Origin: Brumimicrobium salinarum
GTDB taxonomy: Bacteria > Bacteroidota > Bacteroidia > Flavobacteriales_D > Crocinitomicaceae
Assembly: GCF_002844555.1 (NCBI RefSeq)
Contig: NZ_PJNI01000005.1
Coordinates: 62,001 to 126,000, forward strand
Length of the DNA stretch: 64,000 bases
Direction of reading: 5' to 3'
Below, piece after piece: positions 28,605 to 56,312 of the stretch (position 1 is the first letter of the stretch; every line of letters begins with the position of its first letter). The notes beneath the pieces were generated by a model. The model was not told the DNA's origin. It ran no database searches and was given only the letters and a program-made list of their open reading frames with translations. The position numbers were made by a program, and so were the translations under genes.

Positions 28605-31112
28605 TTATAAATCACCAAGATTTGCACCTATTATAAACTGGAAAGCTCCTATTGGTTTACCTCCCATACGTGAAATATCATTTCCACTGCCTGCACCTTT
28701 ACTATGAGGATCTAAAGGATCAAAGCCCCAACCATAGTCAAACCCTAACAAACCAAACATTGGTAAATAGATTCTAACTCCACCTCCAAGACTACGTTTT
28801 ACATTGAATGGGTTAAAGTTATCAAATCCTGTGTATGTGTTTCCAGCTTCAGCAAATGCAAGAACGAAGAAAGTAGCGGAAGGGTTTAGCGAAATCGGAT
28901 AGCGTAATTCTAGACTATACCTGGTGATAATAGGATCTCCCGTTCTAGAGGAAATTTCTTGTTCCTCATAACCTCTTAAAGAAATTAACTCACGACCATC
29001 CAAACGTTGAACACCCGTTAATGCATTTCCTCCTAAATAAAATCGTTCAAAAGGTGAGAGTCCTTTATCTGAAGAATAACTTCCCATGAATCCAAAACCT
29101 ATTTTAGGCGTTAAAATCAACTTTTTATCTGGCGTTAAAGGTAGATACCATTCACCAGTTAATTTCAACTTATAATATTCTGCATATTTAAATCGTTCTT
29201 GATCTGTTAAACCACTATAATCGGTTCTATTGTCAAATTGTGAGTAAGGCAAGGTACCTTTTGCTGTAAAAGAAATACGTGATCCACTTGTTGGGTAAAT
29301 TGGTGCATCAACAGAGTTTCTAGCCAAAACATATTTTAAAGCAATATCATTCGAATATCCATTATCAAATGCAAAAGAAGAATAGTTTGTAATATCATAA
29401 TAACTATATGACAATTCATAATAAGCACTAAAATAGTCATCAGGAATTTTTTTTCTTCTTTGCAAACCAACTCCTGCTCCAGTTATTGACACATTATAAT
29501 AGTTTTCATTCCCAGTATCGAAACCACTTCCGTATTTAGAATGATTCATCCAAACAGAAAATGCGTTTGGTTTTTTCCCACCTAACCATGGTTCTGTAAA
29601 AGAAAGATTATATGCTTGATAAAACTTTCCGTTGGTTTGTGCACGAACAGAAAAAGTTTGACCATCTCCAGTTGGTAAGGGTTGCCAAGCTTCTTTATTA
29701 AACATATTCTGAATAGAGAAGTTATTAAAAGTCAATCCTAAAGTTCCAATTATTCGACCTGCACCATATCCTCCAGATAATTCAATTTGATCAGATGATT
29801 TTTCCGTTACAACGTATTCAATATCTACTGTTCCATCCGCTGGATTTGGCAAAGGGTTAATTTCAAATGCTTGTTCGTCAAAATATCCTAATTGCGCGAG
29901 CTCTCTTTGGGTTCTAATTATATCATTTCGATTAAAGAGATCACCTGGTTTAGTTCTAATTTCTCTACGAATAACATAATCATTTGTTTTATAGTTACCC
30001 TTAATAATAATATCTTTAATTCTAGCTTCTTTCCCTTCAATCAATCTTATCTCATAATCAATATGATGGTCGTTCACACTAACCTCTACAGGAGTTGCTT
30101 GGAAAAAAAGATGACCTTTATCCATATATAAAGACGTGATATCTCTACCGTCCATACTTTGGAAAAGTCGTGTCTCTAATAAGGTTTGATTATATAAATC
30201 ACCATGTTTTATCCCCAACACAGTATCTAAAAATCCAGAGGAATATTTAGCATTTCCCACCCATGAAATATCCCCAAAATAATATTTTTCACCTTCATCA
30301 ATATAAATATCTACAATCAAATTTTTCTCATCTCTGGCATAGACGGAATCCTTGATGATTGTAGCATCTCGCAAACCAATTTCTTTAAATTCTTGTAGCA
30401 TTAACTTTTTATCACGCGCATAAGCTGACTCTGTAAACTTAGAACGCTTAAAGAATCTCCAAAAAGCTTTTTGTTTAGTGTCTTTCATTTTACGACGCAG
30501 CTTACCATCTTTTATAGACTCGGCGCCATAGAAATTAATTTCTGCAATTCTAACCGATTTTCCTCTATCAATATTAATAATGAATATTTCTGAGTTATTC
30601 ATTAAAGAATCATTTACGCGATCAATGTTAACTTTTACATTATAAAAGCCTTTCTCACGATAAAAACCAATAACTTTTGCCCGTGTATTAAATATTAAGT
30701 TTTCAGTAATATTTTTACCCGAAAACAAATTTATTTCTTCCCTAATTTTATCAGCCTCTTTTTTCTTTGCTCCTATAAATTTGAACCGTGAAAGTTTCGG
30801 TCGAGGCTTTAAGTTAATAGCCAGATATGCAACATCACCTAATACTTTTTCCAATTGAATTTGAACATCAGAAAACAATCCTTCATCCCACAGGTTATTG
30901 ATTGCTTTAGTAATTTCTTCTCCTGGAATTTTAACCTTACTCCCTTGTTTCAGTCCAGATATAAGTTTAATTGCCTGATGATCAAAGTTATCTACACCAT
31001 TTACCGTTATTGGTCCAATTTCATAGGTTTTTGGGTTTTCATAATCTATTTTTTGCCCAAACAAAAGATGGGAAAAACAAATCATTAGAAATAAAATCGT
31101 GTAATGTTTCAT
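28605..31112 (-). CDS. bamA: Outer membrane protein assembly factor BamA
   Basis: BamA inserts beta-barrel proteins into the outer membrane. The 835-residue protein has a signal peptide (1-19), five POTRA domains over about residues 25-440 (repeating patterns such as IAEINFYGAESIKDGKLRR and IIIKGNYKTNDYVIRREIRT), and a 16-strand Omp85 barrel containing the conserved loop segments around RGYEEQEISSRTGDP and a final GVRIYLP...FIIGANLGDL. It starts 1 bp after the uppS stop, so its translation may be coupled to uppS. Confidence 0.95.
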   Translation of the reverse strand: MKHYTILFLMICFSHLLFGQKIDYENPKTYEIGPITVNGVDNFDHQAIKLISGLKQGSKVKIPGEEITKAINNLWDEGLFSDVQIQLEKVLGDVAYLAINLKPRPKLSRFKFIGAKKKEADKIREEINLFSGKNITENLIFNTRAKVIGFYREKGFYNVKVNIDRVNDSLMNNSEIFIINIDRGKSVRIAEINFYGAESIKDGKLRRKMKDTKQKAFWRFFKRSKFTESAYARDKKLMLQEFKEIGLRDATIIKDSVYARDEKNLIVDIYIDEGEKYYFGDISWVGNAKYSSGFLDTVLGIKHGDLYNQTLLETRLFQSMDGRDITSLYMDKGHLFFQATPVEVSVNDHHIDYEIRLIEGKEARIKDIIIKGNYKTNDYVIRREIRTKPGDLFNRNDIIRTQRELAQLGYFDEQAFEINPLPNPADGTVDIEYVVTEKSSDQIELSGGYGAGRIIGTLGLTFNNFSIQNMFNKEAWQPLPTGDGQTFSVRAQTNGKFYQAYNLSFTEPWLGGKKPNAFSVWMNHSKYGSGFDTGNENYYNVSITGAGVGLQRRKKIPDDYFSAYYELSYSYYDITNYSSFAFDNGYSNDIALKYVLARNSVDAPIYPTSGSRISFTAKGTLPYSQFDNRTDYSGLTDQERFKYAEYYKLKLTGEWYLPLTPDKKLILTPKIGFGFMGSYSSDKGLSPFERFYLGGNALTGVQRLDGRELISLRGYEEQEISSRTGDPIITRYSLELRYPISLNPSATFFVLAFAEAGNTYTGFDNFNPFNVKRSLGGGVRIYLPMFGLLGFDYGWGFDPLDPHSKGAGSGNDISRMGGKPIGAFQFIIGANLGDL

Positions 31113-31113
31113 A

Positions 31114-31856
31114 CTAACTTTTCAATTGTTCAGATACTTGACCGAAACGTCTTTCTCTATTTTGATAATCAATAATAGCTTCGTGCAAGTCTTCTTTTTT
31201 GAAATCTGGCCATAATTTATTGGTGAAATACAGTTCTGAGTAGGCAATTTGCCACAGCATAAAATTACTTAACCTACATTCACCAGATGTTCGAATTAGC
31301 AATTCTGGATCTGGCAGATCATTCAAGCACATTTGTTGGCTTAATAATTCTTCGTTGATTTCATCAATTTCAAGTTCCTTATTCTTAACTAGGCTTGCTA
31401 TTTTTTTGTTGCGTTAGTTATTTCCCATCTTGCACTGTAATTCAAAGCCAAAATCAAATCTAAAGCGTCATTTTCTTTTGTCTCCTCCTTCGCCTTATTT
31501 AGCTCTATATTACAATCGACTGGGAGTCTTGAACTATCACCTATACTTCTAAGCCGAATATTATTATCATTTAATTCTGAAACTTCATTTGCTATCGTTT
31601 CAACCATTAGATTCATCAGTCCGTCAACTTCTTCTTTCGGTCTGTTCCAATTCTCAGTTGAAAAAGCATACAGGGTTAGGTAACGCACCCCCAAATCCAC
31701 ACAAGCTTTAAGTACTTCACGCACTGCCTCGACTCCTGAGGAATGCCCAAATAAACGCACCTCGCCATGTTGTTGTGCCCAACGGCCGTTACCATCCATT
31801 ATGATAGCGATGTGTTCGGGGCATTTACTGCGATTTATTTGATCTACTAGACTCAT
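31114..31856 (-). CDS. uppS: Isoprenyl transferase UppS, reading frame split by a -1 shift
   Basis: UppS makes the C55 undecaprenyl diphosphate carrier for cell-wall synthesis. The first part (31856-31398, 152 residues) has IAIIMDGNGRWAQQHG (catalytic D21) and LTLYAFSTENWNRP, and ends NATKK-stop. The second part (to 31114) has LIRTSGECRLSNFMLWQIAYSELYF. A -1 shift at A AAA AAA (minus strand, complement of 31401-31407), immediately before UAG, joins them into a normal 247-residue protein. Causes could be recoding, mutation or a base-call error. The gene is otherwise intact. Confidence 0.85.
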
Positions 31857-31987: not shown

Positions 31988-32278
31988 TTAGTCTGCAAGA
32001 ACAATTATTTTATCATTTTGCATTTCCATTACTCCGCCTTTTATTGCCAAACGAATGACTCTAGAGCTAGTTGAATCTGTTTCAAAAGAACCTGAAAACT
32101 CATCATAATCTCTGTCATCGTTTTTCAGATCAACCTTTACCTTTCCTTCAGTAAGTGCTGAAATGATAGGAGCGTGACCTTTCAAGACTTGAAATGATCC
32201 ATCGATACCTGGAAATCGAACTGCATCGACTTCTCCTTCAAACATTTTCTTTTCTGGAGTAATTATTTCTAAATTCAT
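31988..32278 (-). CDS. atpC: ATP synthase F1 subunit epsilon
   Basis: The 96-residue protein covers the N-terminal beta-sandwich (LEIITPEKKMFEGEVDAVRFPGIDGSFQVLKGHAPIISAL) and lacks the C-terminal helical hairpin that inhibits the enzyme in many bacteria. Short epsilon subunits are common in Bacteroidota. It follows atpD by 11 bp; the rest of the ATP synthase genes are elsewhere. Confidence 0.93.
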   Translation of the reverse strand: MNLEIITPEKKMFEGEVDAVRFPGIDGSFQVLKGHAPIISALTEGKVKVDLKNDDRDYDEFSGSFETDSTSSRVIRLAIKGGVMEMQNDKIIVLAD

Positions 32279-55282: not shown

Positions 55283-55483
55283 ATGAATATTCGAAATAGA
55301 CAAATCTTCAGAATCATTCTAGGATCAATCATAATTGGGGGTTCACTTTATGTTTCATTTAGGTATTTGTTTAAATCTCCACCCTTTTTTAAAATTCTAG
55401 TTTTAATTGCTTTGGTGGCGATCATATATTTAACTATTGATTATATCGTAAAAAAAGGAAAACAAGATAGATATGGAAACTAA
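55283..55483 (+). CDS. Small two-helix membrane protein
   Basis: The 66-residue protein has hydrophobic segments near residues 11-29 and 37-53 with a basic cytoplasmic tail (KKGKQDRYGN). No family is recognised. Its last 11 bp overlap the start of the SPFH gene, so the two are translationally coupled and probably form a complex. It has a good promoter directly upstream. Confidence 0.7.
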   Translation: MNIRNRQIFRIILGSIIIGGSLYVSFRYLFKSPPFFKILVLIALVAIIYLTIDYIVKKGKQDRYGN

Positions 55484-56312
55484 AAAAATGGTAAGGTTGG
55501 TTGCAATTGGAGCAGTAGCACTGATTGCATTAGTAATATTTTTAAATTCATGGGTAGATGTAAAACCTGGAGAACGTGGTTTCGTTTTTAAACCCTTCAA
55601 TTCACCAAGTATTGATACAAATGACGTTTATATGGAAGGTACGTATTTTATCCTTCCTTGGAACCAAATGATCAATTACGAAGTAGTAAACAAATCTAAA
55701 CAGTATGTTCAAAAAGTAATGGACATCAATGGTACAGATGTAACTGTAGAGGTTTCTGTTAACTATAACATCATCCCAACAGCTGTTGCTAATTTGCACA
55801 TGAAACATCGTGAAAACTATACGATTTTTATTGATGATAAAGCAAAAGGAGCGATAAAAGATGTTATTGGACGCTATACGTATGAACAGGTATACGCTTC
55901 AAAACGTGAGGCATTAGAAGGGGAAATTGAAGATATTTTAGAACGTGATTTCGATGGAAACTTTCTTCATCTTAACTATGTAGAAATTGCAGATGTAAAT
56001 CTTCCAGAAAACATTGCAGCACAAATCGAGGAAAAAGAAACACAGAAACAAAGAAACCTTACAGCAAAAGAAAAGCAAAAGGAACAAGAGTATCTTGCTA
56101 ATGCCAGAATTGAGAAGGCGCGAGGGGATTCTTCTTTAATTATTTCTGCAAAATTTAAAGCGGAAGCAATTCGATTGGAGGCAGAACAAATTGCAAGAAA
56201 CCCGCAATACATCGAATTGAAAAAATGGGAAAAATGGGAAGGCGGAGGCTCTCCTTACGGAACTAACAACGTATTTGGAGATAAAGCAATTAGTATTCTT
56301 AAGTCAAATTAA
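55473..56312 (+). CDS. SPFH/Band 7 (prohibitin-like) membrane protein
   Basis: The 279-residue protein has a membrane helix (about 8-27), an SPFH domain (VDVKPGERGFVFKPFNSPS through VTVEVSVNYNIIPTAV and YEQVYASKREALEGEIEDIL) and a C-terminal coiled coil rich in Glu, Lys and Ala (about 180-240). Such proteins form rings that organise membrane proteins and proteases. It follows a 66-residue membrane protein with an 11-bp overlap. Confidence 0.9.
   Translation: METKKMVRLVAIGAVALIALVIFLNSWVDVKPGERGFVFKPFNSPSIDTNDVYMEGTYFILPWNQMINYEVVNKSKQYVQKVMDINGTDVTVEVSVNYNIIPTAVANLHMKHRENYTIFIDDKAKGAIKDVIGRYTYEQVYASKREALEGEIEDILERDFDGNFLHLNYVEIADVNLPENIAAQIEEKETQKQRNLTAKEKQKEQEYLANARIEKARGDSSLIISAKFKAEAIRLEAEQIARNPQYIELKKWEKWEGGGSPYGTNNVFGDKAISILKSN

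Follow-up and report, generated by a model that had tools for sequence, protein, structure and literature searches.

Programmed frameshifting, transcriptional slippage and errors of genome assembly can each account for an open reading frame that is broken at a run of adenines. In dnaX-type programmed −1 frameshifting, an A-rich heptamer lies in register with a stop codon nearby, as it does in the uppS gene described here; unlike dnaX-type sites, the uppS site is not conserved, no nested stimulator structure was seen at it, and the breaks in its genome extend beyond the register open to tandem slippage. Residual errors in long-read assemblies have reportedly been found. Systematic nanopore indels in genome assemblies have been described (PMC8011154). 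Assembly homopolymer errors leave A and T runs one base short in unrelated genes, essential ones included, are rare in relatives and give rise to false pseudogenes, all as in the genome studied here, in which, however, roughly half of the A8-class runs that were scored are still in frame (29 versus 23 broken). According to the GeneTack survey, BLASTp-validated frame breaks confined to a single genome are expected to be sequencing errors (PMC3711429). Like the singleton frameshift genes of that survey, uppS has a homology-validated break in one genome only; unlike them, it is one of many such breaks that share a run length within a single genome. In the same paper, A_AAA_AAA is one of the consensus heptamers listed for predicted frameshift sites, and an A_AAA_AAA test cassette gave 10% frameshifting (PMC3711429). 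In bacterial transcriptional slippage at A runs (PMC1088944, PMC5574713), one extra A could restore the frame in any register, as it could in uppS; insertions during transcription are described as prevailing at A and T runs, at rates that rise exponentially with run length (PMC5574713). The uppS run differs from slippage sites of the kind surveyed in PMC1088944 in that it is 7 bases long and not 9, is not conserved and is known here from DNA alone.

The genome studied (G000) is that of a Brumimicrobium, 3.41 Mb in 86 contigs and 98% complete, and the window, meaning the whole stretch of 64,000 nucleotides that was analysed, contains 46 A/T 7-mers. The uppS gene, for an essential enzyme of the cell wall, lies on the minus strand and reads ..GAA ATA ACT AAC GCA ACA AAA AAA TAG at the break. 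The original prediction that the frame stops at A AAA AAA followed at once by UAG is borne out by the minus-strand sequence at 31407..31398. The features of the locus are as follows.

31856..31398, minus strand: zero-frame open reading frame of uppS, ending in TAG after 152 codons
31401..31856, minus strand: first part of uppS (frame 0), from the ATG at 31856 through the A7 run, 152 amino acids, matching PF01255 positions 1-132
31407..31401, minus strand: A7 run, register A AAA AAA, lacking one base relative to the frame of the relatives
C45:93401-93407: the same A7 run in contig coordinates
31400..31398, minus strand: in-frame TAG directly 3′ of the A7 run, whose bases belong to ATA-GCA in the −1 frame
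31114..31400, minus strand: second part of uppS in the −1 frame, stop included, matching PF01255 positions 137-219

From the A7 run the −1 frame is open to a stop at about 31114, for a total of 247 residues. A Pfam family search placed the two halves at positions 1-132 and 137-219 of the 219 positions of PF01255; since they cover the family in order, the enzyme is complete across the break, and the NCBIfam uppS models matched both halves in the same order. The open frame and the two PF01255 halves also confirm the earlier claim that the −1 frame restores a 247-residue enzyme. The neighbouring genes, named by eye from their translations, are atpC (31988..32278) and bamA (28605..31112). No second uppS copy was found in the G000 genome, nor a second version of the break site or a redundant contig carrying one, and five tiny contigs (L128-L132) had no match to the 1.16 Mb sampled of G000.

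We compared uppS with its counterparts in 58 relatives. The gene was unbroken in all 56 with a match (G029 and G047 gave none), including nine of nine genus-mates. In a second set of 80 uppS loci, which overlaps the first by at least three genomes and includes one locus (L019) missed by the motif search at the break codons, both halves lay in one frame in 79 cases, and the 80th lay within one open frame of 254 codons; no conserved frame break was therefore found in the 56 matched relatives or in the 80 further loci. Several relatives have Lys-Lys-Ile-Ala at the position of the break. Comparison with close relatives, which the original prediction had called for, showed the frame to be unbroken in those examined; some of them do keep an A7 or A8 run at the same codons, but in frame. 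An intact A8 stands at the break position in 3 of the 80 loci, and in one of these (L063) it is followed by TAGCA, exactly as in G000 apart from the eighth A. Loss of one A from A8-TAGCA automatically yields A AAA AAA TAG in register, so the immediate stop is no independent evidence of a recoding site. Against eight genus-mates, identity was 63-77% for the downstream half of uppS and 72-82% for the upstream half.

We then looked at homopolymers across the genome, scoring coding potential on both sides of every run in 1.164 Mb of G000 and 1.584 Mb of eight genus-mates. The 261 scored coding A7 runs of G000 comprised 233 in frame, 25 with a −1 break and 3 with a +1 shift; the 190 of the genus-mates comprised 187, 3 and 0, respectively (−1 breaks, 25/261 versus 3/190; Fisher p = 0.0003, or 0.0008 without two gene boundaries). 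These two boundaries, recognized by eye among the 25 calls, are C45b:113628 (Era then Der) and C1:612060 (efflux pump then next gene); the remaining 23 look like real breaks, and the genus-mates' three calls were left unpruned. The uppS run scored too low to pass the scan's threshold and was added by hand wherever the total is 24. When 606 ORFs from eight genus-mates were first used as homology queries, two breaks emerged, in uppS and in a dehydrogenase gene. With the queries extended to ORFs from all nine genomes, homology revealed 8 breaks in 167 kb of G000 (uppS included) and 3 in 709 kb of the relatives (rate test, p = 0.0002). None of the relatives' three is at an A run. All eight in G000 are one base short and none is one base long, six of them lying at A7, one at A9 and one at A5. 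The pattern of many homopolymer breaks in one assembly, rare in its relatives, fits consensus error, as does the indifference of the breaks to codon register and to essentiality, uppS and ligA both being hit.

The 25 A7 breaks are distributed over all three registers, with 12 in A AAA AAA, 9 in AAA AAA A and 4 in AA AAA AA (11, 9 and 3 once the two boundaries are removed). A AAA AAA accounts for 12 of 24 breaks (uppS included) and for 14 of 59 in-frame A8 runs when those of G000 and its relatives are pooled (p = 0.035, uncorrected); against the A8 runs of G000 alone the comparison is 12/24 versus 9/29 (p = 0.26). At the same setting, 29 A8 runs in G000 are in frame, compared with 23 broken. 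In the T sense there were 2 breaks and 8 in-frame T8 runs, compared with 23 and 29 in the A sense (p = 0.18, at thresholds that were not identical); at two fixed settings the p values were 0.23 and 0.14. At the main setting, every run of five to seven G or C in G000 was in frame (73/73 and 22/22); looser settings flagged one G5 run each. The ratio of 8-runs to 7-runs in G000 (523/2591 = 0.20) is the lowest of ten genus genomes, the others having 0.23-0.34. Extrapolated by length from the 1.16 Mb sampled, the count of 23 to 27 breaks would correspond to 67 to 79 in the whole of G000, and to more if other breaks escaped the scan as uppS did.

The broken genes are unrelated to one another, and those that bear on the cause are listed here.

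C45:56683 = L115:16683-16689: Glu/Leu/Phe/Val dehydrogenase, TCA AAA AAA TGA, A7 then stop as in uppS; found by homology
C5, L124:5892-5898, minus strand: ligA (NAD-dependent DNA ligase), sole copy found; A7 within the HhH (helix-hairpin-helix) region
C1:525195 and C1:525673 (L219): TPR-like gene with two A7 breaks 478 bases apart; named by eye
C1:230528 = L184:10528: ABC transporter, T7 break; both halves in one family
C12:68379 = L229:8379: MauG-like di-heme protein, T7 break; no match for the upstream half
C1:61461: M28-peptidase-like gene, A5, one base short; homology to relatives, name by eye
C12:25980: MBOAT-like gene, A9, one base short; homology to relatives, name by eye
C12:79395, C3:12544 and C12:84208: homology-supported breaks in register AAA AAA A

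The dehydrogenase gene is unbroken in six genus-mates. Looser settings were needed to pick up the two T7 breaks, which were assessed by reading. We prepared 19 broken genes for family searches and searched 13, the names of the others being read from their translations. Both halves fell in one family and in the right order in 10 of the 13, with one weak half in three of these (dehydrogenase, E 0.0025; SurA-like, E 0.0055; Sir2, E 1.6e-6). A FolC-like gene matched two consecutive domains, the second weakly, and the upstream halves of the HmgA-like and MauG-like genes had no family match. By eye, an outer-membrane-efflux-like gene at C45:39938 (L114) may also be broken, one base short, at a short A run near an A6 call.

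Several other signals proved uninformative. At window positions 55482-55488, an A7 run with an apparent +1 shift is the start of a gene (METKKMVRL..) conserved in the relative G008 and a natural false positive of the scan; it was the one +1 call of the three that we read. Calls of −1 at A6 runs numbered 14 in G000 and 8 in the relatives, and most of the apparent −1 calls at A6 and T6 turned out, by eye, to be gene boundaries or spurious frames. Homology searches for in-frame stop sites returned 8 in G000 and 3-17 per relative, with no excess in G000; most probably come from spurious ORF queries, and these sites were not used as evidence. Intergenic run lengths were considered as proof of undercalling and set aside: G000 is short of 8-runs, but G001 and G006 seemingly are too, in small samples. 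Between same-strand genes, T runs drop sharply in number from length 7 to length 8 in G000, a drop absent from G003 and G005; G001 and G006 resemble G000, again in small samples. This intergenic drop may reflect terminator biology and not error. A separate observation concerns secE at L255:1501 (C6:60035), which has a non-ATG start in G000 and likewise in some genus-mates. A marker search is described as having missed SecE in Brumimicrobium glaciale (PMC7214798), to which the non-ATG start is possibly related.

Programmed −1 slippage at the uppS site was one of two readings offered in the original prediction. In its favour, the run conforms to the slippery heptamer pattern X XXY YYZ, as A AAA AAA in the zero frame at 31407..31401, with a stop directly 3′ and a −1 frame that restores the enzyme; the heptamer is one of those listed in PMC3711429, and the 7-A cassette of that paper slipped at 10%. 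A GGGA seen by eye 15 bases upstream of the run had been offered as a weak candidate stimulator. Downstream of the run, folding at three lengths gave no nested structure beyond that of shuffled sequences (z 0.10, −0.34 and −0.90), no relative examined shares the site, and its layout follows from a single base lost from A8-TAGCA. Moreover, the homology-supported breaks at C12:79395, C3:12544 and C12:84208 lie in the AAA AAA A register, in which tandem slippage of two tRNAs would find no good re-pairing; ribosomal slippage is thus not the common cause of the breaks, and the one in uppS needs no cause of its own. At this heptamer, programmed −1 ribosomal frameshifting is accordingly extremely unlikely, and a mechanism specific to uppS is not supported, given the lack of conservation in the relatives examined and the other G000 genes broken in other registers. 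With similar breaks in all three registers across the genome, the evidence turned to the other possibility named in the original prediction, a base missing at the A run. Single-base losses at runs are common mutations, and a true frameshift that has inactivated uppS in this strain, whose lineage might be a mutator or in decay, would draw on them; the A5 break in the M28 peptidase gene could be such a loss, and the downstream half of uppS is slightly less conserved than the upstream half. That half nonetheless contains no further stop or break and matches PF01255 well. UppS and LigA are held to be indispensable, so with the only uppS and the only ligA found both broken, plain loss of function is implausible: a cell that had lost both would not be viable by established knowledge, and we rate this reading as very unlikely.

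Two readings remain, undercalling and rescue by RNA polymerase slippage, and under both, breaks one base short are expected at A and T runs whatever the register. The second holds that the A7 runs are real, that RNA polymerase adds an A in part of the transcripts, enough for UppS, LigA and other proteins to be made, and that dozens of A8-to-A7 deletions have been tolerated. Breaks that are independent of register, confined to A and T and always deletions are what such slippage could rescue, genes held essential are among those broken, breaks may be less frequent at T than at A runs (p = 0.14 to 0.23), and there is a mild excess of the A AAA AAA register (p = 0.035, uncorrected, against the pooled A8 runs and 0.26 against those of G000 itself). 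A strict restriction of the breaks to the A sense, which would have opposed sequencing error, is contradicted by the two T7 breaks judged by reading, which show T runs to be affected as well. The survey in PMC1088944 mined runs of 9, and insertion rates climb exponentially with length (PMC5574713), whereas the uppS run is 7; yet a 7-A cassette gave 10% frameshifting (PMC3711429), which also counts for rescue. Rescue would be difficult for a gene broken twice and for a break at A5, and none of the eight sampled genus-mates carries an equal burden. We therefore regard slippage rescue as unlikely, and it is somewhat less likely still that a free-living bacterium lives with dozens of real A7 breaks, even in essential genes such as uppS and ligA, by genome-wide slippage, most likely of RNA polymerase.

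The deposited sequence is most probably one A short at the uppS run, one of many such homopolymer deletions in the assembly, as the genome-wide pattern favours. The organism would then have A8 at uppS, recorded as A7; some 70-80 or more similar deletions would be spread across the assembly, and uppS itself would be an ordinary, intact 247-residue cis-prenyltransferase. The record has an A7 run and a broken frame, the relatives are intact, and G000 carries many one-base-short breaks that are rare in those relatives; from this we infer that the fault arose during sequencing or consensus calling rather than in the cell. Undercalling is favoured by essential genes that are not spared, a gene with two breaks, an affected A5 run, relatives that are nearly free of breaks and the lowest 8/7 ratio. 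Random undercalls easily explain that uppS and ligA are both broken and that one TPR gene is broken twice. Undercalling would be partial, since 29 A8 runs are still in frame. A uniform undercall is harder to accommodate: loss of about 40% of all A/T 8-runs implies an original 8/7 ratio of about 0.4, higher than in any of the nine relatives. Either undercalling is therefore less frequent outside strongly coding sequence, or its rate is overestimated there. Another Brumimicrobium genome, that of B. glaciale, is described as assembled with Unicycler from Illumina reads at a depth of at least 150-fold (PMC7214798); if the G000 assembly were of this deep-Illumina kind, homopolymer errors would be surprising and the artefact reading weakened.

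A base missing from the record is a likelier explanation of the uppS break than a new mode of recoding. Patterns of a slippery site followed by a stop arise automatically from one lost A. If the breaks are artefacts, about 70-80 or more genes of this assembly, as extrapolated from a third of the genome, are probably mis-called as truncated. Should the A7 runs instead prove real, this genome would offer a system in which to study how a free-living bacterium rescues essential genes by slippage.
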